From: Meghimatium bilineatum
Lineage: Eukaryota; Mollusca; Gastropoda; Stylommatophora; Philomycidae
Assembly (NCBI GenBank): GCA_034231615.1
Contig: CM067298.1
Coordinates: 804,834 to 868,833, forward strand
Reading direction: 5' to 3'
DNA: 64,000 nucleotides
The position numbers and the translations under genes are program-made. Below are positions 4,882-62,344 of this stretch, one piece after another (within the stretch, counting starts at the first letter, position 1; every line of letters begins with the position of its first letter). The notes under the pieces are model-generated. The model was given only the letters and a program-made list of their open reading frames with translations, made no database searches and had not been told where the DNA came from.

Positions 4882-5098
4882 ATCAATAGCCTTCTTCAGA
4901 TCTGACATCGCTTCAGCAGTGTCACTTAAGACAGATGTCTTTGATTTTCCCTGGGAAATAGCTTTTACTCCTTTGCCTTTGACAGGTTTTGGAGTGATGT
5001 CTTCCATTGACTTGGCTACATTTAGTATGACAGCTGCACAAGGTCTTATGAGTCCTTGAGCCAGAGCATTACAGATATTCACAAGCATCAGGGTTTCA
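4882..5098 (-). CDS. CFAP46: CFAP46-like gene, exon 12 of this window
   Basis: This 217-nt exon is read as T plus 72 codons. The first base completes the codon GG|T left by exon 11, giving GHSG-ETLMLVNICNALAQG. The acceptor is CTCATAG|TGAAACC and the donor is ATTGAT|GTGAGA. The peptide continues LIRPCAAVILNVAKSMED, a helical stretch like the TPR-type repeats upstream, then a Lys-rich loop (KPVKGKGVKA). The exon ends in phase 0, so the next exon should lie left of 4.88 kb; I saw none before the LINE at 4.3 kb and it is probably outside the window. A minisatellite starts at the acceptor itself. Identity rests on the joined product. Confidence 0.75.
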
Positions 5099-5590
5099 CT
5101 ATGAGTAAACAATCAGAACATTAGAGTTTCACTATGAATAAACAATCAGAACATTAGAGCTTCAATATGAGTAAACAATCAGAACATTAGAAATTCACTA
5201 TGAGTAAACAATCAGAACATTAGAGCTTCAATATGAGTAAACAATCAGAACATTAGAGCTTCAACATGAGTAAACAATCAGAACATTAGAAATTCACTAT
5301 GAGTAAACAATCAGAACATTAGAGCTTCAATATGAGTAAACAATCAGAACATCAGATTTTCACTATGAGTAAACAATCAGAACATTAGCATTTCGTTATG
5401 AATAAATAATCACATTAGTTTCATTATGAGTAAACAATCAGAACATCAGAATTTCACTATGAGCAAAAAAAATCAGAGCATTATAATTTTAATATGAGCA
5501 AACACAGAATATTAGAATTTAACTATGAGCAAACAAACAGAACATTAGAGTTTCACTATGAGAAAACAAACAACATTAGAGTTTGAGGTA
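5085..5590. repeat. 32-bp minisatellite seeded at the exon 12 acceptor
   Basis: About fifteen copies of a roughly 32-bp unit (core gagtaaacaatcagaacatt). The first copy overlaps the 5' edge of exon 12, so each unit carries a version of the acceptor (minus strand GTTTACTCATAG|TGAAA). About half the units keep CATAG; the others read CATAT, CATGT or similar. Copies degrade to the right. Confidence 0.9.
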
Positions 5591-9438: not shown

Positions 9439-9651
9439 CCTGAGTGTCCAAATTGATGTAGGCCATCTAATACAGCAGTGAGATGTGGAACAATTTCTGC
9501 ATGTCGGCCCTGACTCAGGATGTGGTTGTTATAGTTCCATATGTAAGTGGCAGCATTAAACACAAGCCAGGCTTCTTCAAGTTGAATACCAATGACCATG
9601 CCACGTAAGAAATTTGATGTTGCTTGATCAGATATCTCTTTAATCCAGGTA
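9439..9651 (-). CDS. CFAP46: CFAP46-like gene, exon 11
   Basis: This 213-nt exon is T + 70 codons + GG. Exon 10 leaves TG, so the junction codon is TGT (Cys): DWDYY-C-TWIKEISDQ. The peptide runs on with EEAWLVFNAATYIWNYNNHI and ends LDGLHQFGHSG. The acceptor is ATAATGTACAG|TACC and the donor TCAGG|GTACGT. The Trp/Tyr-rich EEAWLVFNAATYIWNYNNHI stretch looks like a conserved helical repeat. The 41-bp minisatellite begins within a few bases of the acceptor, so its polypyrimidine/branch region lies in repeat sequence. A second donor-like site, TCAGG|GTATGT, lies 40 nt downstream at 9393-9398. Confidence 0.8.
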
Positions 9652-9653
9652 CT

Positions 9654-10560
9654 GTACATTATAGAACAATAGATCGACATCAGACATTTACACATTCTAT
9701 TATAGAACAATAGATCGACATCAGACATTTACACGTTCTATTATAGAACAATAGATCGGCATCAGACATTTACACGTTCTATTATAGAACAATAGATCGA
9801 CATCAGACATTTACATGTTCTATTATAGAACAATAGATCAACATCAGACATATGCACATTCTATTATAGAACAACAGATCGACATCAGACATTTACACGT
9901 ACTATTATAGAACAATAGATAAACATCAGACATTTATACAGTCCATTATTGAAACAATAGATCGACATCAGACATTTACACGTTCTATTATAGAACAACA
10001 GATCAACATCAGACATTTACACGTACTATTATAGAACAATAGATAAACATCAGACATTTATACAGTCCATTATTGAAACAACAGATCGACATCAGACATT
10101 TACACGTTCTATTATAGAACAACAGATCGACATCAGACATTTACACATACTATTATAGAACAACAGATCGACATCAGACATTTACACGTTCTATTATAGA
10201 ACAACAGATCAACATCAGACATATGCACATTCTATTATAGAACAACAGATCGACATCAGACATTTACACGTACTATTATAGAACAATAGATAAACATCAG
10301 ACATTTATACAGTCCATTATTGAAACAATAGATCGACATCAGACATTTACACGTTCTATTATAGAACAATAGATCAACATCAGACATTTACACGTTCTAT
10401 TATAGAACAATAGATCAACATCAGACATATGCACATTCTATTATAGAACAACAGATCGACATCAGACATTTACACGTACTATTATAGAACAATAGATAAA
10501 CATCAGGCATTTATACAGTCCATTATTGAAACAACAGATCGACATCAGACATTTATACAT
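9654..10560. repeat. 41-bp minisatellite abutting the exon 11 acceptor
   Basis: About twenty-two copies of a 41-bp unit (core atagatcgacatcagacatt). Unit variants (acgtact, cagtccattattg, atgcacatt) recur in a fixed order, which indicates higher-order repeats. Each unit has a small inverted repeat TTCTA-TTA-TAGAA. The first unit abuts exon 11. Confidence 0.95.
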
Positions 10561-10639
10561 TCTACTTCTCTACGCAATGGAAATAAAAGTTTGAGAATAG
10601 CAATATAATGGCAAACAGAGATGACAACATGACTCCTGT

Positions 10640-14010: not shown

Positions 14011-14085
14011 TCTGCAAATAAATTGTCAATATGAATTTCTGAAAGAATAAGTTAATAAATTAACAGCTTATGGTTATTGTCAGCC

Positions 14086-15618
14086 ATGTCATCAGCTCTA
14101 CCCTACCATGTTATCAGCTCTACCTTACCATGTCATCAGCTCTACCTTACCATGTCATCAGCTCTACCTTACCATGTTATCAGCTCTACCTTACCATGTC
14201 ATCAGCTCTACCCTACCATGTCATCAGCTCTACCCTACCATGTCATCAGCTCTACCTTACCATGTCATCAGCTCTACCCTACCATGTCATCAGCTCTACC
14301 CTACCATGTCATCAGCTCTACCCTACCATGTCATCAGCTCTACCCTACCATGTCATCAGCTCTACCCTACCATGTCATCAGCTCTACCCTACCATGTCAT
14401 CAGCTCTACCCTACCATGTCATCAGCTCTACCCTACCATGTCATCAGCTCTACCCTACCATGTCATCAGCTCTACCCTACCATGTCATCAGCTCTACCCT
14501 ACCATGTCATCAGCTCTACCCTACCATGTCATCAGCTCTACCTTACCATGTCATCAGCTCTACCCTACCATGTCATCAGCTCTACCCTACCATGTCATCA
14601 GCTCTACCCTACCATGTCATCAGCTCTACCCTACCATGTCATCAGCTCTACCCTACCATGTCATCAGCTCTACATTACCATGTCATCAGCTCTACCCTAC
14701 CATGTTATCAGCTCTACATTACCATGTCATCAGCTCTACCCTACCATGTTATCAGCTCTACCTTACCATGTCATCAGCTCTACCCTACCATGGCATCAGC
14801 TCTACCTTACCATGTCATCAGCTCTACCCTACCATGTCATCAGCTCTACCTTACCATGTCATCAGCTCTACCCTACCATGTCATCAGCTCTACCTTACCA
14901 TGTCATCAGCTTTACCTTACCATGTCATCAGCTCTGCCCTACCATGTCATCAGCTCTGCCTTACCATGTCATCATCTCTACCTTACCATGTCATCAGCTC
15001 TACCCTACCATGTCATCAGCTCTACCCTACCATGTCATCAGCTCTACCCTACCATGTCATCAGCTCTACCCTAACATGTCATCAGCTCTACCTTACCATG
15101 TCATCAGCTCTACCCTACCATGTCATCAGCTCTACCTTACCATGTCATCAGCTCTACCCTACCATGTCATCAGCTCTACCCTACCATGTCATCAGCTCTA
15201 CCCTACCATGTCATCAGCTCTATCCTACCATGTCATCAGCTCTACCTTACCATGTCATCAGCTCTACCTTACCATGTCATCAGCTCTACCCTACCATGTC
15301 ATCAGCTCTACCTTACCATGTCATCAGCTCTACCCTACAATGTCATCAGCTCTACCCTACCATGTCATCAGCTCTACCTTACCATGTCATCAGCTCTACC
15401 TTACCATGTCATCAGCTCTACCCTACCATGTCATCAGCTCTACCTTACCATGTCATCAGCTCTACCCTACCATGTCATCAGCTCTACCTTACCATGTCAT
15501 CAGCTCTACCCTACCATGTCATCAGCTCTACCCTACCATGTCATCAGCTCTACCCTACCAGGTCATCAGCTCTACCCTACCATGTCATCAGCTCTACCCT
15601 ACCATGTCATCAGCTCTA
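14086..15618. repeat. 22-bp minisatellite, ~70 copies
   Basis: Head-to-tail copies of a 22-bp unit (core catcagctctaccctaccat) vary mainly at CCC/CTT. Because 22 is not a multiple of three, one repeat reads through all three plus-strand frames, and no unit contains a stop. This explains the overlapping 334-, 509- and 529-codon frames here. They should not be annotated as genes. Confidence 0.97.
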
Positions 15619-15629
15619 TTTCAATGTTC

Positions 15630-16605
15630 ATACTTGATGTCCCACTTTCCTACCCTACCATGTTGATCAAGATCTCTCTCCCACTTTCCTACCCTACCAT
15701 GTTGATCAAGATCTCTCTCCCACTTTCCTACCCTACCATGTTGATCAAGATCTCTCTCCCACTTTCCTACCCTACCATGTTGATCAAGATCTCTCTCCCA
15801 CTTTCCTACCCTACCATGTTGATCAAGATCTCTCTCCCACTTTCCTACCCTACCATGTTGATCAAGATCTCTCTCCCACTTTCCTACCCTACCATGTTGA
15901 TCAAGATCTCTCTCCCACTTTCCTACCCTACCATGTTGATCAAGATCTCTCTCCCACTTTCCTACCCTACCATGTTGATCAAGATCTCTCTCCCACTTTC
16001 CTACCCTACCATGTTGATCAAGATCTCTCTCCCACTTTCCTACCCTACCATGTTGATCAAGATCTCTCTCCCACTTTCCTACCCTACCATGTTGATCAAG
16101 ATCTCTCTCCCACTTTCCTACCCTACCATGTTGATCAAGATCTCTCTCCCACTTTCCTACCCTACCATGTTGATCAAGATCTCTCTCCCACTTTCCTACC
16201 CTACCATGTTGATCAAGATCTCTCTCCCACTTTCCTACCCTACCATGTTGATCAAGATCTCTCTCCCACTTTCCTACCCTACCATGTTGATCAAGATCTC
16301 TCTCCCACTTTCCTACCCTACCATGTTGATCAAGATCTCTCTCCCACTTTCCTACCCTACCATGTTGATCAAGATCTCTCTCCCACTTTCCTACCCTACC
16401 ATGTTGATCAAGATCTCTCTCCCACTTTCCTACCCTACCATGTTGATCAAGATCTCTCTCCCACTTTCCTACCCTACCATGTTGATCAAGATCTCTCTCC
16501 CACTTTCCTACCCTACCATGTTGATCAAGATCTCTCTCCCACTTTCCTACCCTACCATGTTGATCAAGATCTCTCTCCCACTTTCCTACCCTACCATGTT
16601 GATAA
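15630..16605. repeat. 39-bp minisatellite, ~25 nearly identical copies
   Basis: The unit (core gttgatcaagatctctctcc) is repeated about 25 times with no difference I could find until the last copy. It shares taccctaccatgt with the 22-bp array it follows. It reads as a 13-residue peptide repeat with no biological meaning. Confidence 0.97.
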
Positions 16606-25779: not shown

Positions 25780-28700
25780 AATCACTTCCAAAACTATAAT
25801 TCATCACTTGCATCATGAAACTAATAAATCATCACTTGCATCATGAAACTAAAAAAATCATCACTTGCATCATGAAACTAAATAAATCATCACTTGCATC
25901 ATGAAACTAATAAATCATCACTTGCATCATGAAACTAATAAATCATCACTTGCATCATGAAACTAAATAAATCATCACTTGCATCATGAAACTAAATAAA
26001 TCATCACTTGCATCATGAAACTAATAAATCATCACTTGCATCACGAAACTAATAAATCATCACTTGCATCATGAAACTAATAAATCATCACTTGCATCAT
26101 GAAACTATAGATCAGCACTTGCATCATGAAACTAATAAATCATCACTTGCATCATTAAACTAATAAATCATCACTTGCATCATGAAACTAAATAAATCAT
26201 CACTTGCATCATGAAACTAAATAAATCATCACTTGCATCATTAAACTATAAATCATCACTTGCATCATGAAACTAAATAAATTATCACTTGCATCATGAA
26301 ACTAATAAATCATCACTTGCATCATGAAACTAATAAATCATCACTTGCATCATGAAACTAATAAAACATCACTTGCATCATGAAACTATAGATCAGCACT
26401 TGCATTATGAAACTAATAAATCCTCACTTGCATCATTAAACTATAAATCATCACTTGCATCATTAAACTATAAATCATCACTTGGATCATGAAACTAATA
26501 AATCATCACTTGCATCACTAAAATAATAAATCATCACTTGGATCATGAAACTAATAAATCATCACTTGCATCATTAAACTATAAATCATCACTTGGATCA
26601 TGAAACTAATAAATCATCACTTGCATCACTAAAATAATAAATCATCACTTGCATCATGAAACTATTAAATCATCACTTGCATCATTAAACTATAAATCAT
26701 CACTTGGATCATGAAACTAATAAATCATCACTTTCATCACTAAAATAATAAATCATCACTTGCATCATGAAACTAATAAATGATCACTTGCATCATTAAA
26801 CTATAAATCATCAATTGGATCATGAAGCTAATAAATCATCACTTGCATCATGAAACTAATAAATCATCACTTGCATCATGAAACTAATAAATCATCACTT
26901 GCATCATGAAACTAATAAATCATCACTTGCATCATGAAACTAATAAAACATCACTTGCATCATGAAACTATAGATCAGCACTTGCATCATTAAACTATAG
27001 ATCAGCACTTGCATAATGGAACTAATAAATCATCACTTGCATCATTAAACTATAAATCATCACTTGCATCATTAAACTATAAATCATCACTTGCATCATT
27101 AAACTATAAATCATCACTTGCATCATGAAACTAATAAATCCTCACTTGCATCATTAAACTATAAATCATCACTTGCATCATTAAACTATAAATCATCACT
27201 TGGATCATGAAACTAATAAATCATCACTTGCATCATGAAACTATTAAATCATCAATTGCATCATGAAACTATAGATCAGCACTTGCATCATGAAACTAAT
27301 AAATCATCACTTGCATCACTAAAATAATAAATCATCACTTGCATCATGAAACTAATAAATCATCACTTGCATCATGAAACTAATAAAACATCACTTGCAT
27401 CATGAAACTATAGATCAGCACTTGCATCATGAAACTAATAAATCCTCACTTGCATCATTAAACTATAAATCATCACTTGCATCATTAAACTATAAATCAT
27501 CACTTGGATCATGAAACTAATAAATCATCACTTGCATCACTAAAATAATAAATCATCACTTGGATCATGAAACTAATAAATCATCACTTGCATCATTAAA
27601 CTATAAATCATCACTTGGATCATGAAACTAATAAATCATCACTTGCATCACTAAAATAATAAATCATCACTTGCATCATGAAACTATTAAATCATCACTT
27701 GCATCATTAAACTATAAATCATCACTTGGATCATGAAACTAATAAATCATCACTTTCATCACTAAAATAATAAATCATCACTTGCATCATGAAACTAATA
27801 AATGATCACTTGCATCATTAAACTATAAATCATCAATTGGATCATGAAGCTAATAAATCATCACTTGCATCATGAAACTAATAAATCATCACTTGCATCA
27901 TGAAACTAATAAATCATCACTTGCATCATGAAACTAATAAATCATCACTTGCATCATGAAACTAATAAAACATCACTTGCATCATGAAACTATAGATCAG
28001 CACTTGCATCATTAAACTATAGATCAGCACTTGCATAATGGAACTAATAAATCATCACTTGCATCATTAAACTATAAATCATCACTTGCATCATTAAACT
28101 ATAAATCATCACTTGCATCATTAAACTATAAATCATCACTTGCATCATGAAACTAATAAATCCTCACTTGCATCATTAAACTATAAATCATCACTTGCAT
28201 CATTAAACTATAAATCATCACTTGGATCATGAAACTAATAAATCATCACTTGCATCATGAAACTATTAAATCATCAATTGCATCATGAAACTATAGATCA
28301 GCACTTGCATCATGAAACTAATAAATCATCACTTGCATCACTAAAATAATAAATCATCACTTGCATCATGAAACTAATAAATGATCACTTGCATCATTAA
28401 ACTATAAATCATCAATTGGATCATGAAACTAATAAATCATCACTTGCATCAGGAAACTAATAAATCATCACTTGCATCATGAAACTAAATAAATCATCAC
28501 TTCCATCATTAAACTATAAATCATCACTTGCATCATTAAACTATAGATCAGCACTTGCATAATGGAACTAATAAATCATCACTTGCATCATTAAACTATA
28601 AATCATCACTTGCATCATTAAACTATAAATCATCACTTGCATCATTAAACTATAAATCATCACTTGCATCATGAAACTAATAAATCCTCACTTGCATCAT

Positions 28701-29357
28701 TAAACTATAAATCATCACTTGCATCATTAAACTATAAATCATCACTTGGATCATGAAACTAATAAATCATCACTTGCATCACTAAAATAATAAATCATCA
28801 ATTGCATCATGAAACTATAGATCAGCACTTGCATCATGAAACTAATAAATCATCACTTGCATCACTAAAATAATAAATCATCACTTGCATCATGAAACTA
28901 TTAAATCATCACTTGCATCATTAAACTATAAATCATCACTTGCATCATGAAACTAATAAATGATCACTTGCATCATTAAACTATAAATCATCAATTGGAT
29001 CATGAAACTAATAAATCATCACTTGCATCAGGAAACTAATAAATCATCACTTGCATCATGAAACTAATAAATCATCACTTGCATCATGAAACTAATAAAA
29101 CATCACTTGCATCATTAAACTATAAATCATCACTTGCATCATTAAACTATAGATCAGCACTTGCATCATGAAACTAATAAATCATCACTTGCATCATTAA
29201 ACTATAGATCAGCACTTGCATCATGAAACTAATAAATCATCACTTGCATCATGAAACTAATAAATCATCACTTGCATCATGAAACTAATAAATCATCACT
29301 TGCATCATGAAACTAATAAATGATCACTTGCATCATGAAACTAATAAATCATCACTT
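25780..29357. repeat. 28-bp minisatellite, main block
   Basis: About 125 units of 27-29 bp (core aataaatcatcacttgcatc) with recurring variants (ctatagatcagcac, cattaaactata, cactaaaataat, cttggatcat). Variant order repeats with an offset of about 1,022 bp (26391 onward against 27413 onward), so a kilobase block was duplicated. The array is interrupted by LINE family B and resumes at 33412. Confidence 0.97.
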
Positions 29358-32300
29358 GCATCTTCTTCTTCTTCTTTCGTTCACTTGAAACATGTCTATA
29401 TCTGTAATTCTGTCTCCTTAATAAAACTCACTGTCTTTTGTAGTTCATACAGTGTCCCATAGAGTTTTGAGTCCAGTGTTGTTTCCTCTGGCCAATATGT
29501 CTGCCTCAGCGTTTCATGCTCAGAACACTCTTGAAGTATATGTTTGGCACTCTGTGCTGCCTGTCCACATGTACATGGCCGTGTTGCCAATCTTGAACTT
29601 TGTATACATGTGACTGCGGAGTCGGTTGTGTCTTGTTCTGAGACGTAGAATTATAACTTGTTCTGGTCTGTTCATAATATGATAGTCATCTTGTGTTGGT
29701 GTTTGTGGCTTTCTTATTGACTTGATCATCTGTTTTTTCTGATGGTAGGTGATTGGTATATCTGGTTGGTCTTCGGCAGCACCTTCATTAGCCAGTTGGT
29801 CTGCTTTTTCATTTCCTGGTATTCCACAGTGAGAGGGTATCCACTGCATGGTTACCCTATACTGGTAAGACAATTCGCTAAGTAGTTTTTTTAAGTCTGT
29901 TAGTTTTCCAGACTGGAGAGCTTGAAGCACTGACCTTGCATCTGTCAGGAATACCACAGGCTGTATGTCAGAGTTCGAGTTCAGCAGTTTTTTAGCTGCC
30001 ACACTAATTGCCTGGATTTATGCATCATAATTATTGCAGAATTTTCCTGTCGGTGTTCTGATTGTATCTCTAGGCTTGTGTGGATATTCTATATATACAC
30101 CTGCACCTCCATTCCTCACAGCATTCTGTGCTGACCCATCTGTGCACACTCTGACCCATATATCTTGTGGATATTCCTCATCCAGGAAACTGAGGGTGAC
30201 TGTCCTTCGCTGCACACTGTTCTGTTCGTCCTCGCTTAGTATTCCTTTCACATGGGTCTGAATGTATATTGGCATTCCATGGCTTTCACTCCACGGGGTT
30301 TGCTCTGGTACAGACCTTAAGGGGCTGTCAACTTCAGGTAGGTCTGTAAGTTGTCTACGGAGTCGTTTAGCTTGATGGATAAAGCTGCTCTTTTTCAGTC
30401 GTCCCATTGCTAGATTTTGGAATCTTTCCTTCATTGGATGACTTGGCATACACTGAAACTTTTCTGCTTGAATTAGTACTTTTGTGTCTCTGCGTTCGCC
30501 AAGTGTTTGCATTCTTCCCATTTTCTGCATCTCTGCTATGGGTGTTGATTTCATTGCTCCCAACATTATTCTAAGTGCCTGGTTTTGCACTTTATCTAGA
30601 TCTTGTAATGTGGTGTTTGATGCAGGACACCACGCAGCTGAACCGTATTCCAGGTGTGGTCTTATGCCTTGCTGGTAAACTTTACTGAGTATATTTCCAC
30701 TGGCTCCCCATGTGGTTCCACTTAGTTTTCTCAGGATAGCTAGCTTCCTCCTGGCTTTTGTTGTTGCTTTGTTTATGTGCTGCTTCCATGTCAGCTTATC
30801 ATCAAAAGTAACTCCGAGGTATGTGGGTTGTTTGTCTTCTTTCAAGAGCTCTCCATCTATCTTGATATGACCAGCTTTTTGTTTTGGTGAGAGGGTAAAG
30901 AGTGTAGTGCTGCACTTATCTGTGTTAATGCTGACGCACCATCTATTAGCCCATAAGGTTAGGGCATCGATAGCTCTTTGTATTTGTTTAGTGGCCACTG
31001 TTGCATGTTCTTCCGTGCACCAGATCACCAGGTCATCAGCATACATTGCCACTTTGATCCCGTGTGGTAGTTCAGCAACTAGGTCATTGATGTAAACCAA
31101 GAAAAGTCTGGGTGACAGGACTCCTCCCTGGGGGACTCCATGACGCAGTAGAACTTTCTTGCTCTTGCGACCATCTAATTGTACCCTGGCTCTTCTATTA
31201 TGCAGGTATGCTTTTACCCATTTGTACATTCTTGAGCTAACCCTGCAATTTCACAATTTCTTTAGGAGCCCTTCTTTCCAGACCTTATCAAATGCTTTCC
31301 TGAGGTCTATCCATGCTGCTAGTACCAGTTTCTTTTCTTGGAAGGCATCCTCAATCTCTTGGGAGAGGTAGGTTGCCTGATCTTCAGTAGAGTGGCACTG
31401 TCTGAAACCTGCTTGCTGTGATACCAGAAGGTTTTCACTTTCAAGGTACCACTGCATCCTAAGATTGATAATGCGTTCCATTGTTTTACATAGACAGCTT
31501 GTGAGGCTGATGGGCCTGTAGTTGGAGACTGTGTTGCCATCTTTTCCTGATTTGAGGAGTGGTATCATTATTGCTTCTCTCCACGCCTGTGGTACATTAC
31601 CTGTGGACCAGCTTGTGTTAAAGATCTGCAGTAGCTTTGCTCTTGCTGCACTTCCCAGGTTTCTAATCATTTCATTGGACACTCCATCAGCTCCAGGGGA
31701 CTTTTTCATTTTCAATTTGGATATTGCATGCTCCAGTTCTCTCATTGTGATTGGTGCCTCCATGACTTCAGGTATAGGTTCACCTTGTCCAATGTTTTGC
31801 TGGTTCTCTCGAACCTCCTGTTGTTTGTCTGGGCTGACTTTGACATTATTGTCTTCTGCAAAGGAATCTGCAAAGTAATCAGCTGCATGTTTACCTGTTA
31901 AAATGTTTCTATCTTTATAAGGTGTGATCCTGGTATTTCTCCCTGTACCTTCATCATTTAGTTGTTTTACAAGTTTCCATAATTTCCTAGTATCTCTTTC
32001 TAGGTTCAGCGACTCTGTTTTTTCTTTCCAGCTGCTCCGTCTGGCTTGTAACTTGGCTCTTTGAAATTTAGCCTTTGTTTGCTGATATTTGTTGTGATGT
32101 TCTTGGCTAGGTCTGTTCTCAGCCTGCTGTCTAGATGTTTCCATCTCATTTTGCAGCTTTTCCAGTTCATCATTCCAGTAGGGTTTGTAGTTTTTGCGTG
32201 CCCCCCTGGGTATGGTTTTACTAGCAGCATGTAGTATACATCTATTAAATTCACTCACTGCTCTATTGATGTCTTTGTCCAAGTTCATGTCCTTAGCTAG

Positions 32301-33411
32301 AACACTGGTTAAATGCTGGTACATTTTCCAGTCTGCCCTTTTATAGTTCCACCTAGTGAGCGTGCTGCTGTCCTTGGTAAATTCATTGTGGATTTCCAGA
32401 AATACTGGTCTGTGGTCACTACCTCCAAGCTGCTTTCCAACAACACGTGTGATGTTCCATTCCAAGCCTGGTGAGTGGAATGCTAGGTCTGGTGTAGAGG
32501 TGGTGTGCCATGCTCTCGAGTAGAAGGTTGGCGAGTCTGCTGGCTGGTTAATAAGGATGAGATTATTTTCATCCTGCCAGCTCTCAAGTTCCTCACCTCT
32601 CTTGTCGATATGATCATAGCCCCAGCTCTGAGAGTGGCTGTTGAAGTCACCACACACCATAAGTCTCTCTTTGTCTGGAATTGTGTCTAGTGCCAATGGT
32701 TTATCATTTGGGCAGTAGTAATTCAGGAGATGGAATTCTGCACTGTCTGTTTTTAGGTGGAGCATCTGGTATTCTGCCCCTTCCATATATACTTCAAGCT
32801 GACATGCGCTGATATTGTTTTTAACAAGTGTCAGAATTCCACCCTTTCGCCTGTCCTTTCGGTCAGATCGGTAGCACTGGTAGCCTCTGATTTTGAAGGC
32901 TATGTCGCTGCTGAGGTGTGTTTCTTGGATACAGCATATGTTAACTTGTTCTTCACTGAGGACATTTTCAAGTTCCAATTTTTTGCTGTATCCATCTCTT
33001 TTACTGTTGACACCCTCAGCATTCCAGTGCATTATTTTTATTGGTCGTTTGTTTGTTTGGCCAGTAGCTCTATTCCCTTGCCTCCTGGCTCCTCGGGGCA
33101 ATTGAGAAGGACTTCCAGTAACTGAGGTTGGGCCCTTTCGAGGTATAGGGCCCGGCACCGTCCCTGCCTGAACGTCCGCCACAGGGCAGGCACCATAACT
33201 ATTTATAGATGTAGACATGTTTCCATTGTGTTTTGTGCGTGGCATCCTGATTATCTGTGCGCCTTTTGGCTGGATGCCTCCGTCTTCAGCACTCTGCTTA
33301 CTAGGGCAGGACTATGGTCCTGCTCGAGTGGGACTGCCCGACCAGTCTTAGTTTCCAGCCCCTGATGGCTGAACTAAGCCCCATCACCTCTGCACGGTGC
33401 TGGTCTCGATG
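29358..33411 (-). mobile_element. LINE family B, nearly full-length (RNase H-bearing, Jockey-like)
   Basis: The 4-kb element lies on the minus strand inside the 28-bp array. The 3' end (left) is a short (GAA)n tail and the 5' end (right) starts near GGTCTCCATC... at about 33411. The 9-bp sequence acttgcatc occurs at both junctions and would be the target-site duplication, although it is also part of the repeat unit. A second, 5'-truncated copy at 58546-59782 differs by only a few percent by eye, so the family was recently active. Confidence 0.9.
29396..33245 (-). pseudogene. LINE family B polyprotein (EN-RT-RNase H), three lesions
   Basis: One minus-strand frame from ATG at 33245 is broken only by a TGA at 31251-31253, a TAA at 30018-30020 and a 2-bp deletion near 29570. 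The endonuclease shows IMHWNAEGVNSK, CCIQETHLS, MVCGDFNSHSQSWG, STPDLAFHS and GGSDHRPVFLE. The RT shows KKSPGADGVSNEMI, VSNYRPISLTS, WIDLRKAFDKVW, HGVPQGGVLSPRLFLVY and AMYADDLVIW. The RNase H shows CTDGSAQN, LTDARSVLQ and GNEKADQLA. The TAA replaces the Glu codon of YDAEIQA, an RNase H active-site position that is intact in the second copy. The C-terminus carries CxCGQ...H...C. It is not functional as a single protein. Confidence 0.9.
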
Positions 33412-33957
33412 GAGACTTGCATCATGAAACTAATAAATCATCATTTGCATCATTAAACTATAGATCAGCACTTGCATCATGAAACTAATAAATCATCACT
33501 TGCATCATTAAACTATAGATCATCACTTGCATCATGAAACTAATAAATCATCACTTGCATCATGAAACTAATAAATCATCACTTGCATCATGAAACTAAT
33601 AAATCATCACTTGCATCATTAAACTATAAATCATCACTTGCATCATGAAACTAATAAATCATCACTTGCATCATGAAACTATAAATCATCACTTGCATCA
33701 TGAAACTAATAAATCATCACTTGCATCATGAAACTAATAAATCATCACTTGCATCATGAAACTAATAAATCATCACTTGCATCATTAAACTATAGATAAG
33801 CACTTGCATCAGGAAACTAATAAATCATCACTTGCATCATGAAACTAATAAATCATCACTTGCATCAGGAAACTAATAAATCATCACTTGCATCATGAAA
33901 CTAATAAATCATCACTTGCATCATGAAACTAATAAATCATCACTTGCATCATGAAAC
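33412..33957. repeat. 28-bp minisatellite, block right of LINE family B
   Basis: Continuation of the 25780-29357 array with the same unit and variants. It ends about 70 bp from the donor of exon 6. Confidence 0.95.
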
Positions 33958-45915: not shown

Positions 45916-46012
45916 CTTTTTTAAATGACCAATGGCCACTTGAATTTGCTCCTTATCTTCATGGCAGTGAGCTAATTCTATGTGCATCTCAGATCTCAGT
46001 TGGACAAGAAGG
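45916..46012 (-). CDS. CFAP46: CFAP46-like gene, exon 4
   Basis: This 97-nt exon is C + 32 codons. AG from exon 3 plus C gives Ser: LDNIE-S-LLVQLRSEMH. It continues IELAHCHEDKEQIQVAIGHL and ends KK in phase 0. The acceptor is GTTTATCATCCTCAG|CCTTC and the donor AAAAAG|GTTAGT. It is too short for most gene finders. A 43-bp minisatellite derived from this very acceptor lies directly upstream, interrupted by a LINE fragment. Confidence 0.82.
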
Positions 46013-46078
46013 CTGAGGATGATAAACTACAGATGAGAGGACAAGACAGCCGAGGATGACATGTACAAACTACAGATG
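46013..46078. repeat. 43-bp minisatellite at the exon 4 acceptor, first copies
   Basis: The unit (core aaactacagatgagaggaca) contains a copy of the exon 4 border. The first copy reads gacaagacagccgaggatg: on the minus strand the acceptor CCTCAG is changed to CCTCGG. The array is split by a LINE at 46079 and continues at 46793. Confidence 0.85.
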
Positions 46079-46792
46079 AATAGATTCACATATCTAGGCA
46101 GTACGTTATCACAAAATGCCAATGTTGATGATGAAGTGTATACAACTTCCAGTGCTGTTATATGCTAGGGAAACATGGACTGTGTATAGACGTCATGTGA
46201 AAAAGTTCAATCATTTTCATACAAATTGTCTCAGAAAAGTTATGAACATCAGATGGCAGGACAAGATTCCAGATACCACTGTCCTTGATAGAGCTGGTAT
46301 CCCAAGCATTCACACGATCCTGATGCAGACACAGATTCGTTCGGCATGTCATTTGGTGCGTATGCCAGACCATTGTCTGCCAAAGATACTTCTCTATGGT
46401 GAGCTAGAGGGTATATGATCTCAAGGTGGCCAAAGGAAGCGCTACAAGGACTCGTTAAAGAACTCACTGAAAGCCTTTGAAATAGACCACGATACATGGG
46501 AAGAACTTGCACAAAATAGATCTACATGGCATTCTAAAATAAAAAAGAGCGCATCATCTTGTGAAAAGAAGAGAATTGCAGCAGCTCAACAGCGGAGAGC
46601 AGCTAGAAAGTCATGGATAGACCAAGATCCGTCTACAGTCGTCATTCCATGTCTGAACTGTCCAAGGACATTTACAGCTCGAATAGAGCTCATTAGCCAT
46701 CTACGAACTCATAATCAAGAACATAACTAAAATTGAATTTTCAAAAGTGAATGTAACAAATGGTCATCATGTGATGGACGAATTACATAACA
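46079..46792 (+). mobile_element. LINE 3' fragment with C2H2-type C-terminus
   Basis: The plus-strand fragment starts RFTYLGSTLSQNANVDDEV and continues through RETWTVYRRHVKKFNHFHTN, DRAGIPSIHTILMQTQIRSA and (after a stop at 46416) KDSLKNSLKAFEIDHDTWEE. It ends CLNCPRTFTARIELISHLRT, a C2H2 zinc-finger-like terminus, at 46.73 kb, then a 3' UTR. It is 5'-truncated and inserted in the 43-bp array. A second fragment of the same family lies at 61150-61445. Confidence 0.8.
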
Positions 46793-47035
46793 TAACACAG
46801 ATGAGAGGACAAGAAAGTTGAGGATGACATGTACAAACTACAGATGAGAGGACAAGAAAGTTGAGGATGACATGTACAAACTACAGATGAGAGGACAAGA
46901 AAGTTGAGGATGACATGTACAAACTACAGATGAGAGGACAAGAAAGTTGAGGATGACATGTACAAACTACAGATGAGAGGACAAGAAAGTTGAGGATGAC
47001 ATGTACAAACTACAGATGAGAGGGCCAGATATGCT
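46793..47035. repeat. 43-bp minisatellite, right block
   Basis: About five and a half copies of the 43-bp unit. Here every copied acceptor reads CCTCAA on the minus strand (plus gttgagg), so none keeps a usable AG at that point. Confidence 0.9.
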
Positions 47036-48664: not shown

Positions 48665-49115
48665 AAAATCATCACTAACCATGTTCATCACTAACAGTGT
48701 TCATCACTAACCATGTTCATCACTAACCATGTTCATCACTAACCATGTTCATCACTAACCATGTTCATCACTAACCATGTTCATCACAAACCATGTTCAT
48801 CACTAACCATGTTCATCACTAACCATGTTCATCACTAACCATGTTCATCACTAACCCTGTTCATCACTAACAGTGTTCATCACTAACCATGTTCATCACT
48901 AACCATGTTCATCACAAACCATGTTCATCACTAACCATGTTCATCACTAACCATGTTCATCACTAACAGTGTTCATCACTAACCATGTTCATCACTAACA
49001 GTGTTCATCACTAACCATGTTCATCACTAACCATGTTCATCACTAACCATGTTCATCACTAACCATGTTCATCACTAACCATGTTCATCACTAACCATGT
49101 TCATCACTAACCATG
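48665..49115. repeat. 16-bp minisatellite, ~28 copies
   Basis: Unit ccatgttcatcactaa, with occasional cagtgtt and cacaaac variants. Confidence 0.95.
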
Positions 49116-49124
49116 CCACAGTTC

Positions 49125-49764
49125 TCAGGAAAGAAATCCAGATGGGAATTAAGGAAATGAATCTTTAGAGACATATTGCAACCAAGTATCTGATACTTCA
49201 TCAGCATGTCTTCTACTAGTTCCTTGTAGTCTTCTACTAGTTCCTTGTAGTCTTCTACTAGTTCCTTGTAGTCTACTAGTTCCTTGTAGTTTTCTGCCCT
49301 AACATTATCGAGAAAGTTGATGGGTACTAGGAGAAAAACATTCCGTGCTTGTTTTACATCACTCTGCAGCAAGTTGTTGAGCAGGTCATCTTTTAAGAGC
49401 TCTTGAATCTGAGAACCCACAAAAACTCCCTCTTTAATCTTTCCTTCATTGAGTCGAGGGAATATTTCATGCAGGTATCGGAAAGCTGACGAAGTCCAGT
49501 CCATGGCTTTCATGAAGTTCTTCATCAAACCAAGTTTGATGTGAAAGTGCGGTAGCAGGATTTTGTGAGACTTGACCAGAGCTGGGTGCTGGATATTCTT
49601 CTCTCCAACTACCACATTTTGTCTGCAAATCTATTCTTCCACAAATAGTGCAGTTCCCTTGCTCGGCTATCCCACTAACATAAAAAGCACATGTATTTTG
49701 TATATCCCTGTGGCAGCCCCAATAAAAGGGCAACTTCCTTCACATCACCACATAGGTGTCAGCT
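49125..49764 (-). pseudogene. Transposon-like conserved ORF of unknown function, C-terminal part
   Basis: The minus strand reads CGDVKEVALLLGLPQGYTKY, (shift) LVKSHKILLPHFHIKLGLMK, NEGKIKEGVFVGSQIQELLK and NMSLKIHFLNSHLDFFPENC, ending near SDEHG at about 49.09 kb. I recall this protein type as a multi-copy, unnamed ORF in many invertebrate genomes, probably transposon-derived; I cannot name the family. A 12- to 15-bp unit encoding YKELVED is tandemly expanded in the middle. The N-terminal part lies at 50975-51680, beyond a LINE insertion. Confidence 0.65.
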
Positions 49765-52647: not shown

Positions 52648-53012
52648 AAATGTTATTCACACAGAACACTCTTCAAATGTTATTCACACAGAACACTCTT
52701 CAAATGTTATTCACACAGAACACTCTTCAAATGTTATTCACACAGAACACTCTTCAAATGTTATTCACACAGAACACTCTTCAAATGTTATTCACACAGA
52801 ACACTCTTCAAATGTTATTCACACAGAACACTCTTCAAATGTTATTCACACAGAACACTCTTCAAATGTTATTCACACAGAACACTCTTCAAATGTTATT
52901 CACACAGAACACTCTTCAAATGTTATTCACACAGAACACTCTTCAAATGTTATTCACACAGAAAACTCTTCAAATGTTATTCACACAGAACACTCTTCAA
53001 ATGTTATTCATA
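52648..53012. repeat. 27-bp minisatellite, ~13 copies
   Basis: The unit (core ttattcacacagaacactct) is almost invariant. It ends about 25 bp from the exon 3 donor. Confidence 0.95.
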
Positions 53013-53039: not shown

Positions 53040-53230
53040 CTTTCTATATTGTCTAAAGCCTCAGCAACAAGAGTCAGTGGTTTATGTACTAAATGTCTGA
53101 GATTTGGCTGCAGAAGTGGCAAGCATAGGTTCCACTGGGTTACACATCCCAACTGTATCACTTTAGGATTACCTAATCGTATTGCATTCATAACTGCTTC
53201 TTCACATCTCTTGATTGCTTGCAGACGAAC
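53040..53230 (-). CDS. CFAP46: CFAP46-like gene, exon 3
   Basis: This 191-nt exon (63 codons + AG) starts in phase 0: KSIVD-VRLQAIKRCEEAVMN. It continues AIRLGNPKVIQLGCVTQWNL, CLPLLQPNLRHLVHKPLTLV and AEALDNIE. The acceptor is CACTTTGTAG|GTTCGT and the donor GAAAG|GTAATT. The RCEEAVxNAIRLGNPxVIQ and TQWNLCLPLLQ blocks are strongly reminiscent of CFAP46 and underlie the naming. The plus-strand frame over it, joined to the 27-bp array, is a shadow. Confidence 0.87.
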
Positions 53231-54600: not shown

Positions 54601-54949
54601 ACACTGGTAACTGTTTGATAACTGTTATAAATCTTATAACTGTTTGATGTGTACATCTTATAACTGCTTTTATAAATCTTATAACTGTTTTTATATCTAT
54701 CTCAGACATAAAAATAACATTTGAGCTACAGGCCTCACAGTTTGTGGACAGCCTCAACATGGGTGGTTGAATTAATGAAGAAATCTATTGCAAGGGTCAG
54801 AGTTGTGCCCTGTTGTTGACAGCATCATTTTCGAAATACCATCAATCAAAAAATGTGATAATCTGGGGGTGTTAATAAAAGGGGAAAGACGAAATTCATA
54901 AAGAAAACAGATAGAATGATATTGTCTAAAAATATGACACACAACTAAC

Positions 54950-55259
54950 ATCAACAATAGATGTGTGACATACAACTTACATCAATAATACATGTGTGAC
55001 ATACAACTTACATCAATAATACATGTGTGACATACAACTTACATCAACAATAGATGTGTGACATACAACTAACATCAAAAATAGATGTGTGACACACAAC
55101 TTACATCAATAATACATGTGTGACATACAACTTACATCAATAATACATGTGTGACACACAACTAACATCAACAATAGATGTGTGACACACAACTAACATC
55201 AACAATAGATGTGTGACACACAACTAACATCAACAATAGATGTGTGACACACAACTTAC
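54950..55259. repeat. 31-bp minisatellite seeded at the exon 2 donor
   Basis: About ten copies of a 31-bp unit. On the minus strand each reads CTATTGTTGATGTAAGTTGT or the variant GATGTTAGT, a near copy of the exon 2 end and its donor (CTATTGTCGAT|GTAAGT). Roughly half keep the consensus GTAAGT. Confidence 0.92.
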
Positions 55260-55358
55260 ATCGACAATAGACTTGTGATAGGTTTCCTGCTTGTCTCCCA
55301 ATGTTCTCACCATAAGCTCACACTCAGCAAACTCCAGCTCTAGGCGAAAGGCTGGATC
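55260..55358 (-). CDS. CFAP46: CFAP46-like gene, exon 2
   Basis: This 99-nt exon is 33 codons, phase 0 at both ends: CDVK-DPAFRLELEFAECEL, then MVRTLGDKQETYHKSIVD. The acceptor is TATATTCTCAG|GATCC and the donor GTCGAT|GTAAGT, the best donor of the set. The intron just past the donor is a minisatellite made of copies of this donor. The plus side is unremarkable. Confidence 0.82.
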
Positions 55359-55404
55359 CTGAGAATATAATATCATGTATATACATATAATGTCATTTCT
55401 ATCC

Positions 55405-55548
55405 ATATCTTCTTCTTCTGTGTTCGTTCTCAAACTCCTGCAGATTAGCAGGATATAGTCTGAAGAACGGAATGCGTTGTGTCATGGTTTACAGCATTGC
55501 TGTAATATCTGCGCCTTTCGGCCTGACACATCCGACTTCAGCATGCTA
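55405..55548 (-). mobile_element. Dispersed SINE-like repeat with (GAA)n tail, copy 3
   Basis: Minus-strand match to 43370-43500 (gtcggatgtgtcaggccgaa ... agaagaag). The tail is (GAA)n at about 55405. Confidence 0.6.
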
Positions 55549-55549
55549 T

Positions 55550-56125
55550 CCATATGTCATGTCTATACCTATAATGCTATTTCTATCCATGCCATGTCTA
55601 TACATATAATGCCATTTCTATCCATATATCATGTTAGATAATATAATGTCATGTCTATAAATATAATGTCATGTCTATACATATAATGTCATGTCTATAC
55701 ATATAATGTCATGTCTATACATATAATGTCATGTCTATATATATAATGTCATGTCTATACATATAATGTCATGTCTATATATATAAGGATATGTCTATAC
55801 ATATAATGTCATGTCTATACATATAACGTCGTGTCTATACATATAATGTTATGTCTATACATATAATGTCATGTCTAGATATATAATGTCATGTCTATAA
55901 ATATAATGTCATGTCTATAAATATAATGTCATGTCTATAAATATAATGTCATGTCTATACATATAATGTCATGTCTATACATATAATGTCATGTCTATAT
56001 ATATAAGGATATGTCTATATATATAAGGTTATGTCTATACATATAATGTCATGTCTATACATATAATGTCATGTCTATACATATAATGTCATGTCTATAC
56101 ATATAATGTCATGTCTATACATAAT
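55550..56125. repeat. 20-bp minisatellite
   Basis: About 27 units of atgtctatacatataatgtc with variants (ataaata, atatata, aaggat). Confidence 0.93.
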
Positions 56126-57558: not shown

Positions 57559-57644
57559 TAATCCAGAAAATTACATCAAAACTGAAGATATTTCTCAATA
57601 GATGTCAGACATTTACTTCACATTCGATGGTCACGGTTAATGAG

Positions 57645-58545
57645 TTATAGAAGAGATGATGAGTTATAGAAGAGATGATGAGTTATAGATGAGATGATGA
57701 GTTATAGAAGATGATGTGTTATAGATGAGATGATGAGTTATAGAAGAGATGATGAGTTATAGATGAGATGATGAGTTATAGATGAGATAATGAGTTATAG
57801 AAGAGATGATGAGTTATAGATGAGATAATGAGTTATAGAAGATGATGTGTTATAGATGAGATGATGAGTTATAGAAGAGATGATGAGTTATAGATGAGAT
57901 GATGAGTTATAGATGAGATAATGAGTTATAGATGAGATAATGAGTTATAGATGAGATGATGAGTTATAGATGAGATAATGAGTTATAGATGAGATAATGA
58001 GTTATAGAAGAGATGATGAGTTATAGATGAGATGATGAGTTATAGATGAGATAATGAGTTATAGAAGAGATGATGTGTTATAGATGAGATGATGAGTTAT
58101 AGAAGATGATGTGTTATAGATGAGATGATGAGTTATAGAAGAGATGATGAGTTATAGATGAGATGATGAGTTATAGATGAGATAATGAGTTATAGATGAG
58201 ATAATGAGTTATAGATGAGATGATGAGTTATAGATGAGATAATGAGTTATAGATGAGATAATGAGTTATAGAAGAGATGATGAGTTATAGAAGAGATGAT
58301 GTGTTATAGATGAGATGATGAGTTATAGAAGATGATGTGTTATAGATGAGATGATGAGTTATAGAAGAGATGATGAGTTATAGATGAGATGATGAGTTAT
58401 AGATGAGATAATGAGTTATAGATGAGATAATGAGTTATAGATGAGATGATGAGTTATAGATGAGATAATGAGTTATAGAAGAGATGATGAGTTATAGATG
58501 AGATAATGAGTTATAGATGAGATGATGAGTTATAGATGATCTTTC
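57645..58545. repeat. 19-bp minisatellite, left block
   Basis: Units with the core gagatgatgagttatagaag and variants atgagataatg and gatgatgtgtt. Block order repeats over several hundred bases. It is split by LINE family B copy 2. Confidence 0.93.
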
Positions 58546-59782
58546 TTCTTCTTCTTTCGTTCACTTGAAACATGTCTATATCTGTAATTCTGTCTCCTTA
58601 ATAAAACTCACTGTCTTTTGTAGTTCATACAGTGTCCCATAGAGCTTTGATTCCAGTGTTGTTTCCTCTGGCCAATATATCTGCCTCAGCGTTTCGTGCT
58701 CAGAACACTCTTGAAGTATATGTTTGGCACTCTGTGCTGCCTGTCCACATGTACACATGGCCGTGTTGCCAATCTTGAACTTTGTATACATGTGACTGCG
58801 GAGTCGGTTGTGTCCTGTTCTGAGACGTAGAATTATAACTTGTTCTGATCTGTTCATATTGTGATAGTCATCTTGTGTTGGTGTTTGTGGCTTTCTTATT
58901 GACTTGATCATCTGTTTTTTCTGATGGTAGGTGATTGGTATATCTGGTTGGTCTTCGGCAGCACCTTCCTTAGCCAGTTGGTCTGCTTTTTCATTTCCTG
59001 GTATTCCACAGTGAGAGGGTATCCACTGCATGGTTACCCTATACTGGTAAGACAATTCGCTAAGTAGTTTTTGCAAGTCTGTTAGTTTTCCAGACTGGAG
59101 AGCTTGAAGCACTGACCTTGCATCTGTCAGGAATACCACAGGCTGTAGGTCAGAGTTGGAGTTCAGCAGTTTTTTAGCTGCCACACTAATTGCCTGGATT
59201 TCTGCATCATAATTATTGCAGAATTTTCCTGTCGGTGTTCTGATTGTATCTCTAGGCTTGTGTGGATATTCTATATATACACCTGCACCTCCATTCCTCA
59301 CAGCATTCTGTGCTGACCCATCTGTGTACACTCTGACCCATATATCTTGTGGATATTCCTCATCCAGGAAACTGAGGGTGACTGTCATTCGCTGCACACT
59401 GTTCTGTTCGTCCTCGCTTAGTATTCTTTCACATGGGTCTGAATGTATATTGGCATTCCATGGCTTTCACTCCACGGGGTTTGCTCTGGTACAGACCTTA
59501 AGGGGCTGTCAACTTCAGGTAGGTCTGTAAGTTGTCTACGGAGTCGTTTAGCTTGATGGATAAAGCTGCTCCTTTTCAGTCGTCCCATTGCTAGATTTTG
59601 GAATCTTTCCTTCATTGGATGACTTGGCATACACTGAATCTTTTCTGCTTGAATTAGTACTTTTGTGTCTCTGCGTTCGCCAAGTGTTTGCATTCTTCCC
59701 ATTTTCTGCATCTCTGCTATGGGTGTTGATTTCATTGCTCCCAACATTATTCTAAGTGCCTGGTTTTGCACTTTATCTAGAT
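58546..59782 (-). mobile_element. LINE family B, 5'-truncated copy 2
   Basis: The minus strand aligns to 29358-30600 with few differences and ends at the same (GAA)n tail. agttatagatgat (13 bp) is present at both junctions, a likely target-site duplication, although the site is itself a repeat unit. The 5' truncation lies at the RT thumb. Confidence 0.92.
58576..59771 (-). pseudogene. LINE family B copy 2: RT thumb, RNase H and Cys motif
   Basis: The frame 59418-59771 (QNQALRLMLGAM-like thumb) is joined to 58576-59397 by a single missing C near 59425. At the matching place in copy 1, about 30242, both Cs are present. The RNase H is intact here: VYTDGSAQNA, YDAEIQAISV, FLTDARSVLQ and GNEKADQLAKEG. 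The C-terminus is CTCGQAAQSAKHILQECSEH. This copy shows the sense codons at both C-terminal lesions of copy 1 (TAA and the 2-bp deletion). Confidence 0.88.
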
Positions 59783-60700
59783 CAGTTATAGATGATGAGT
59801 TATAGATGAGATGATGAGTTATAGAAGAGATGATGAGTTATAGATGAGATAATGAGTTATAGATGATGAGTTATAGAAGAGATGATGAGGTATAGAAGAG
59901 ATTATGAGTTATAGAACAGATGATGAGTTATAGATGAGATGATGAGTTATAGAAGAGATGATGAGTTATAGAAGAGATGATGAGTTATAGAAGAGATGAT
60001 GAGTTATAGATGAGATGATGAGTTATAGAAGAGATGATGAGTTATAGATGAGATGATGAGTTATAGAAGAGATGATCAGTTATAGATGAGATGATGAGTT
60101 ATAGAAGAGATGATGAGTTATAGATGAAATGATGAGTTATAGAAGAGATGATGAGTTATAGAAGAGATGATGAGTTATAGATGAGATGATGAGTTATAGA
60201 AGAGATGATGAGTTATAGAAGAGATTATGAGTTATAGAAGAGATGATGAGTTATAGATGAGATGATGAGTTATAGAAGAGATGATGAGTTATAGAAGAGA
60301 TGATGAGTTATAGATGAGATGATGAGTTATAGAAGAGATGATGAGTTATAGATGAGATGATGAGTTATAGATGAAATGATGAGTTATAGAAGAGATGATG
60401 AGTTATAGAAGAGATGATGAGTTATAGAAGAGATGATGAGTTATAGAAGAGATGATGAGTTATAGATGAGATGATGAGTTATAGAAGAGATGATGAGTTA
60501 TAGAAGAGATGATGAGTTATAGATGAAATGATGAGTTATAGAAGAGAGGATGTGTTATAGAAGAGAGATGAGTTATAGAAGAGATGATGAGTTATAGATG
60601 AGATGATGAGTTATAGAAGAGAGATGAGTTATAGAAGAGAGGTTGTGTTATAGAAGAGAGATGAGTTATAGAAGAGATGATGAGTTATAAAAGAGTTTAT
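59783..60700. repeat. 19-bp minisatellite, right block
   Basis: The same unit as 57645-58545. The last 150 bp contain shortened 17-bp units (agagatgagttataga) and more mutations. Confidence 0.93.
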
Positions 60701-60955
60701 GACTTAAAGGAAGAAAACATACCAGTGCCTGTAAAGGTAGAGATAAAAAGTAAAAATATGAAGATGGACAGTAAATACCCTCAGAAATAAGCATGACAAC
60801 ATAACTAAACAGGCACGGGACTGAAAACCACAGGGAAAGAGCTAGAAGATTAAAGAATACCTGGAGAAGAACAGTGGAGGAAAATACCAAATCAATGGTG
60901 ACCTCATAGACCAAAATGTTGTTTGTCCACATGATGATGATGACCATTTGTTACA
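60700..60955 (+). mobile_element. LINE 3'-end scrap
   Basis: A plus frame reads NHRERARRLKNTWRRTVEEN followed by TKSM, a LINE C-terminal block ending in a gatgatgatgac tail. It is very short. Confidence 0.5.
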
Positions 60956-61991: not shown

Positions 61992-62091
61992 CTTAACATC
62001 ACATTCCTTCATAGCCTGCACACAGGTCAAAGCCAATTCATGTAGACCTAGCTCCAGGCATAGATGGCATACTTCCAACAACAATAGTGGT
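61992..62091 (-). CDS. CFAP46: CFAP46-like gene, exon 1 of this window (internal exon)
   Basis: This 100-nt exon is A + 33 codons, so the previous exon (outside the window) must end with two bases of a codon. It reads PLLLLEVCHLCLELGLHELA then LTCVQAMKECDVK, a TPR-like helix pair. The acceptor is TTTTTCTTTCAG|ACCACT, the strongest of the set, and the donor GTTAAG|GTAATC. It ends in phase 0, matching exon 2. The frame does not begin with a start codon; it is not the first exon of the gene. Confidence 0.8.
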
Positions 62092-62344
62092 CTGAAAGAA
62101 AAATCATCTTATGCATACATTCATACTGACATCTTCATGTCAGAGCTGTGACAGCTGTACAAACACAAACAATAGAATGAATACATGAAATGATTAACAT
62201 ATACAATATAGGCCCTATGCAAGCTTGCTTTTTCTCATTCAATCTCAGGGAATTATACAGTGTGTACAGCAGAATCACTACCAATAAACAAATATTAACA
62301 TTTCTTATACTATTATTACTGGCAGAATGACCAGATTTTTATTC
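62092..62344. other. Intronic sequence, nothing recognised
   Basis: Upstream intron. No further exon with matching phase was seen before the right edge. Confidence 0.4.

Follow-up and report, generated by a model that had tools for sequence, protein, structure and literature searches.

How does an intron come to open with a row of copies of its own splice donor? This question is raised by a stretch of 64,000 nucleotides of the gastropod Meghimatium bilineatum (the window in the following; C1:804834-868833 in an assembly of 1.61 Gb and 32 contigs), in which an exon on the minus strand is followed by an array of 31-bp units, each of which resembles the exon end together with its donor.

Judged by homology the window is located inside the gene of CFAP46, a protein of the cilium, with 12 exons on the minus strand and further exon matches in the sequence that flanks it to either side. 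Joined across GT-AG introns the 12 exons form a single open frame of 514 aa, the product of which matches the solved CFAP46 chain 9ijj_A with E=3.8e-114 and the FAP46 chain 7n6g_1N with E=1e-14, the homology extending in order and in frame over several exons. The exon in question (E2; 55260..55358, minus strand, 99 bp) aligns without gaps over both of its edges to approximately residues 323-355 of 9ijj_A, and E2 together with two neighbouring exons gives an ungapped match with E=3.2e-29. Based on the 9ijj_A alignment and the splice model, E1, with a provisional start, was placed upstream of E2 at 61992..62097 and E3, which is in frame with E2 (phase 0), at 53040..53230; the splice model and the match to the chain place E4 at 45916..46012, E11 at 9439..9651 and E12, with an exact start and a provisional end, at 4951..5098 (all on the minus strand). 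The initial annotation, made from the letters of the sequence, had named a CFAP46-like gene and is borne out by the 12-exon frame. Its “exon 2” is likewise a real exon, but it is the second within the window only, since five CFAP46 exon matches were found upstream of the window.

E2 ends on the minus strand in CTATTGTCGAT/GTAAGT (the slash marks the junction), with the donor GT at 55259, and this donor opens the array, which was detected by TRF at 54935..55278 on the same strand with a period of 31, 11.1 copies and a match of 93%. In register, the array consists of 11 units of 18 exon-like and 13 intron-like nucleotides, unit 1 being the real exon end with its donor and the others being ten copies. 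The donor positions accordingly run from 55259 via 55228 to 54949 in steps of 31 nt, and the ten decoy donors occupy 54949..55228. GTAAGT is present in five of them (55135, 55104, 55042, 55011 and 54980) and GTTAGT in the other five (55228, 55197, 55166, 55073 and 54949), while the sequence before the GT reads CTATTGTTGAT in five units, GTATTATTGAT in four and CTATTTTTGAT in one. In both sequence and coordinates this agrees with the earlier description of an exon end followed by GTAAGT and about ten tandem units of 31 bp. Some units are identical and others are diverged and patterned; in a comparison of the units, similarity showed no trend with distance from the junction. The array reaches into the exon by its first unit only. 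At the opposite edge of E2 a short array (55365..55408, minus strand; TRF), with a 20-bp unit resembling that of a larger array at 55589-56123, stops 6 nt before the acceptor, abutting the exon edge and not spanning it.

The predicted fold of a transcript comprising the exon and the array has an energy of -132.4 kcal/mol compared to -120.0 +/- 5.1 kcal/mol for 60 dinucleotide shuffles; this surplus is modest and expected of a repeat containing TGTGTGTCACACA. A search of viral contigs for the exact E2 unit gave 0 matches.

The similarity between the junction and its copies is beyond chance. All 22 splice edges of the window were compared, with 12 nt on each side, to the same-strand sequence within 2 kb, and three edges stood apart from the rest: the E2 donor, the best copy of which matches 11 of 12 nt on each side, the E12 acceptor (12+10) and the E4 acceptor (10+10), the next best edge scoring 8+8. 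Each of these three scores was equalled by one of 400 non-array positions in the window, and the E2 score was reached by 24 of 3000 non-array positions in a 264-kb region around it; as both control sets omit array positions, they gauge chance similarity and not the frequency of contact between arrays and edges. In a reverse test the units of 64 TRF arrays (period 15-80) were compared on both strands to the 12 exons with 12 nt of flank. The E2 unit matched 19 of 20 nt, the maximum of 384 shuffled units (one strand) being 17, and the shuffled maximum was exceeded by the arrays of these same three edges, with 19, 19 and 18 of 20 nt, none of the others scoring above 16. All three matching units are located at the edge of their own intron and on the strand of the gene. 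An origin of arrays from the inside of exons or from the opposite strand was also considered, and none of the 64 units tested supported it above the shuffled maximum.

If the decoys were used, CFAP46 transcripts would be altered. The predicted pairing with U1 amounts to -5.4 kcal/mol for the real E2 donor and for the GTAAGT decoys and to -1.5 for the GTTAGT decoys. Thus, the earlier statement that the array supplies many decoys of consensus quality holds for five of the ten, which equal the real donor (in itself a modest one), but not for the five weak GTTAGT sites. The expectation that a decoy would shift the frame unless the number of added units were a multiple of three had to be abandoned: an in-frame TGA is located 28 nt into the intron, ahead of the first decoy, so that all ten decoys would truncate the protein whether or not the number is a multiple of three. 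Selection for this early stop in the first unit was considered and rejected, as an in-frame stop within 31 nt was likewise found at five of the ten other donors in the window.

The decoys may nevertheless be imagined to serve as alternative donors, generating extended, early-stopped transcripts which tune the CFAP46 level, in the manner of a poison extension that would act more or less strongly according to array length. Such a role would fit with half of the decoys being predicted to pair with U1 as well as the real donor does, with the early stop common to all ten, and with the authentic E4 donor of the same gene being a GTTAGT, which there follows AAAAAG (predicted U1 pairing -8.1). However, the three decoys nearest to the exon are all of the weak GTTAGT type, an early in-frame stop is ordinary among the donors of the window, and comparable arrays at exon-intron boundaries of amphioxus, known as mirages, reportedly leave regular splicing undisturbed (PMC3087553). 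We therefore consider a use of the decoys unlikely.

The initial annotation had pointed to a single junction array. The E2 case is real, and CFAP46 harbours at least five such cases among the 53 edges examined, two of the others being located in the window. The acceptor of E4 forms the end of a second junction array, which comprises 5.3 copies of a 43-bp unit, 100% alike, at 46797..47023 (minus strand; TRF, unit register and reverse test) and, at 46013..46083 on the same strand, a last, diverged copy together with the intron side of the real acceptor. The AG of the acceptor is kept in none of the six copies, having become AA in all five of the former and GG in the diverged one. The two parts are separated by an insert of about 0.7 kb on the plus strand (46076..46800, approximate limits) with TCATCTGT at each end; by eye it looks like the 3' terminus of a non-LTR retroelement in plus-strand orientation. 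The third array spans the acceptor of E12 (5086..5584, minus strand; TRF and unit register) with 15 copies of a 33-bp junction unit including the real one, TTCTGATTGTTTACTCATAG/TGAAACTCTAATG. AG is kept in seven of its 14 decoys, and all seven would meet an in-frame stop. Many of its units furthermore contain an exon-derived CTAAT or CTGAT, which by eye resembles the branch-point consensus with respect to the next AG.

Other edges of the window are merely approached by arrays. A 41-bp array (9658..10564, minus strand; TRF) stops 6 nt before the acceptor of E11, which it abuts with the exon uncopied, and a 27-bp array (52648..53010, minus strand; TRF) begins 29 nt past the donor of E3, the donor remaining outside of it.

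To cover the rest of the gene, 16 more exons were located by tblastn with human probes in the 264 kb around the window (minus 5,000 bases). Their E-values lay between 4e-16 and 0.046; the weaker matches rest on order, frame and GT-AG borders, and three with E >0.05 were dropped. The edges of these exons were placed by eye from homology and GT-AG, and 31 of 32 were counted, the unclear donor of exon Mf being dropped. Copies in which 10 or more of the 12 nt agree on each side were found at five of the 53 edges and at 30 of 3000 non-array control positions; Fisher values from this contrast were set aside because the controls omit array positions. In addition to the E2 donor and the E12 and E4 acceptors, the five include a donor at C1:794237, with two copies of a 62-bp unit, and an acceptor at C1:729502. 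The latter has seven junction copies including the real one (C1:729481-729841; L016 4648-5008), which are spaced 49-53 nt apart and all keep CTACAG/GTTTACT; this acceptor is the less secure, as homology does not support the beginning of its exon (the first residues). From the copy 102 nt upstream, the sequence can be read through without a stop in the frame of the exon, and this copy is a possible candidate for an in-frame exon extension. Two further CFAP46 edges are borderline cases (10+9 and 7+11).

With 171 arrays seeded at random positions, 0.81 edges would be expected and five or more would occur with P=0.0015, or, if the E2 case is left out (four of 52 edges), with P=0.009; the estimate of over-representation rests on this simple model. 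The window contains 49 minisatellite arrays with a period of at least 9, which cover 34% of its length, and 40% of the 264-kb region is array. The coverage declines toward the exon edges, from 0.50 at 400-800 nt to 0.13 within 10 nt. Edges are thus not the places densest in arrays, and it looks as if only seeds straddling an edge are over-represented.

A search for myosin heads gave 67 exon matches, from which the first 40 without internal stops were taken with 350 nt on each side. An array was detected within 45 nt of the match in ten of the 40 exons. Nine of these ten were inspected, and of the tenth the flank; one represents a clear case of junction copies (L039, C1:3049867-3050734). Its exon ends in VGGHISNYLLEK/GTAATC, and the next 160 nt contain another four copies of AACTACTTGTTAGAAAAG/GTAATC (L039 497-702, C1:3050363-3050568), which hold the codons of the exon end SNYLLEK, presumably a motif conserved in myosins. 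Among the other loci, L064 shows by eye a doubling of the last 6 exon nucleotides and the donor as a 14-bp unit, which the junction-copy test missed, and in L057 an array begins at the donor with the exon uncopied. L063 was rejected, as the only position at which it reached the threshold was an AG of a nearby array, about 40 nt ahead of the match and away from the exon edge. In the rest of the 40 exons these tests found no edge-spanning case within 350 nt on each side.

The direction of copying can be read from the differences between the exon and the units. The exon end of E2 lies inside the ungapped CFAP46 alignment, which continues on both sides of the junction. Its AAG codon (Lys, aligned to Arg) is replaced by ACA in each of the ten units, and in place of its GTC they have GTT (five units), ATT (four) or TTT (one). 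Since it is the units that have drifted while the exon retains the protein-like state, the array is, on sequence grounds, derived from the E2 exon and originated at its splice junction. This origin, already proposed in the initial annotation, is supported by the ungapped homology, the drift from Lys to ACA and the unit match of 19 of 20 nt alike.

According to the opposite scenario, an ordinary intronic minisatellite, perhaps a member of a dispersed family, came first, and the exon end and donor were captured from it later by intron sliding or partial exonisation. Exon-adjacent minisatellites are indeed abundant in this genome, two CFAP46 acceptors are abutted by arrays free of exon sequence, and arrays elsewhere have words of 15-18 nt in common with the E2 unit. 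This is opposed by the gap-free fit of the E2, E4 and E12 edges to CFAP46, by the basic residue which the exon keeps and the E2 units have lost, and by the myosin case, in which the copied exon motif is presumably conserved across myosins. A genome search with the E2 exon and array returned at least 122 matches, all of which except the own locus are at most 76% alike. On C9, C1 and C19 there are arrays with 32-bp units which match the E2 array at 70-75% over about 340 nt and have words of 18 nt (C9), 15 nt (C1, at 130 Mb) and 15 nt (C19) in common with it, the longest word in common with the rest of the 264-kb region being 13 nt. The seven returned loci which were examined by TRF (L002-L008) represent three places, five overlapping on C9, one on C1 and one on C19. 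A dispersed repeat family as the source of the E2 array was rejected on the basis of the similarity of at most 76% and the differing 32-bp units. According to a rough estimate we take the common words to be chance among very many arrays, although they are the one observation that leaves some room for a remote, older and dispersed relative of the E2 unit. Overall, precedence of the array over the junction appears very improbable.

That the array or its length was created by the assembler is hardly conceivable, for although tandem arrays are prone to misassembly, the E2 units are diverged and patterned despite some identical ones, junction arrays with different units exist at other exons, and the E4 array is interrupted by an insert that has a repeated sequence at its flanks.

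We thus regard the E2 array as a mirage, i.e. a minisatellite spanning an exon-intron boundary, with a probability of roughly 85%. Such an array would have been seeded by the tandem duplication of a stretch straddling the junction (18 nt of exon and 13 nt of intron) and may have grown by slippage or unequal crossing-over. It would have spread on the intron side only, because selection on the protein holds the exon side. The outermost unit would remain the working donor, the other ten being untranslated copies. The real donor presumably wins by being transcribed first and by being coupled to the exon and exonic signals, and a slip onto a decoy would lead to the early stop and probably to nonsense-mediated decay.

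Since four more edges of CFAP46 and at least one myosin gene are affected, the birth of arrays at junctions is likely to be a general feature of this genome, filled as it is with minisatellites. More tentatively, splice junctions might be a recurrent birthplace of minisatellites in a lineage outside the cephalochordates, with transcription, R-loops or a selective hold on one end causing the junction DNA to seed and keep arrays. If this were true, thousands of introns would carry rows of splice-site copies and be longer for it, and junction arrays would be a source of cryptic splice sites and branch points and, occasionally, of exon extensions in frame.

Several other repeats of the window were observed beside relics of mariner-, Tigger- and LINE-like elements. 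An ORF at 49094-49630 (minus strand), which has no Pfam match and presumably resembles a mobile-element protein, contains an in-frame 21-bp tandem repeat at 49208-49295 (YKELVED), a minisatellite growing inside a coding frame. Two large arrays are adjacent to each other, one at 14084-15618 (22 bp x 70, 95% match) and one at 15640-16603 (39 bp x 24.7, 100% match), the second of which looks very young. One 28-bp unit occurs in two arrays about 4 kb apart (25791-29362 and 33415-33957) with LINE-like ORFs between them (29520-33311, minus strand), probably representing one array split by an insertion. Similar arrays of 19-bp units at 57640-58539 and 59790-60706 flank a retroelement RNase H ORF (58579-59466) and also look like an array split by an insert. 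Outside the window, the array L002 (C9:52293786-52297128) has a 32-bp unit with ATGTAAGTTGTATGTCAC, 18 nt that recur unchanged in the E2 unit and take in its donor; it is perhaps a chance likeness or another donor-derived array.

Among known systems, the repeat in human ABCA7 is not known to be built of splice-junction copies. It is an intronic VNTR linked to splicing (PMC5954066), and its likeness to the E2 array lies in being an intronic tandem repeat, the splicing link being that of ABCA7. Tandem duplication as a source of introns is covered in PMC4974935, including the Rogers model, fission yeast introns across 24-bp duplicates and the potato RdRp, and has tandem coding copies with splice signals in common with our case. 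In contrast to such intron gain, it is the junction of an existing intron that was copied here, with no sign of a new intron.

The founding paper on amphioxus mirages reportedly appeared in NAR in 2002. Two later sources describe mirages in the genes Adh3, globin, TnC and PGBD5 of amphioxus (Branchiostoma) as length-unstable tandem repeats over exon-intron boundaries, at donors or acceptors, with units of 10-72 bp in Adh3 and 150-160 bp in globins, in which GT or AG is kept in many but not all copies and edge units escape homogenisation (PMC3087553, PMC3902484); regular splicing, as mentioned above, is described as undisturbed in the former. The E2 array resembles them in several respects: its unit of 18 exon and 13 intron nucleotides spans an authentic boundary, its 11 units of 31 bp are arranged head to tail and within the reported range of 10-160 bp, its copies are located on the intron side with the authentic junction as the terminal unit, and many but not all copies in the present arrays keep GT or AG, edge units escaping homogenisation. 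Among the titles and beginnings of abstracts listed from a largely open-access literature, no boundary-spanning minisatellite was recognisable outside amphioxus, the tandem-duplication introns of PMC4974935 coming nearest.

Unlike in amphioxus, at least five cases are present here in one gene, a myosin gene is affected as well and one array is split by an insert. The amphioxus genome has a size of about 0.5 Gb compared to 1.61 Gb here, and it is this second, large genome, with at least five mirages in CFAP46 and a further one in a myosin gene, that makes the phenomenon countable. New with respect to the known mirages are the number per gene, the spread to a second gene and probably the host lineage, and the interest of the locus lies in this recurrence more than in the single E2 array.
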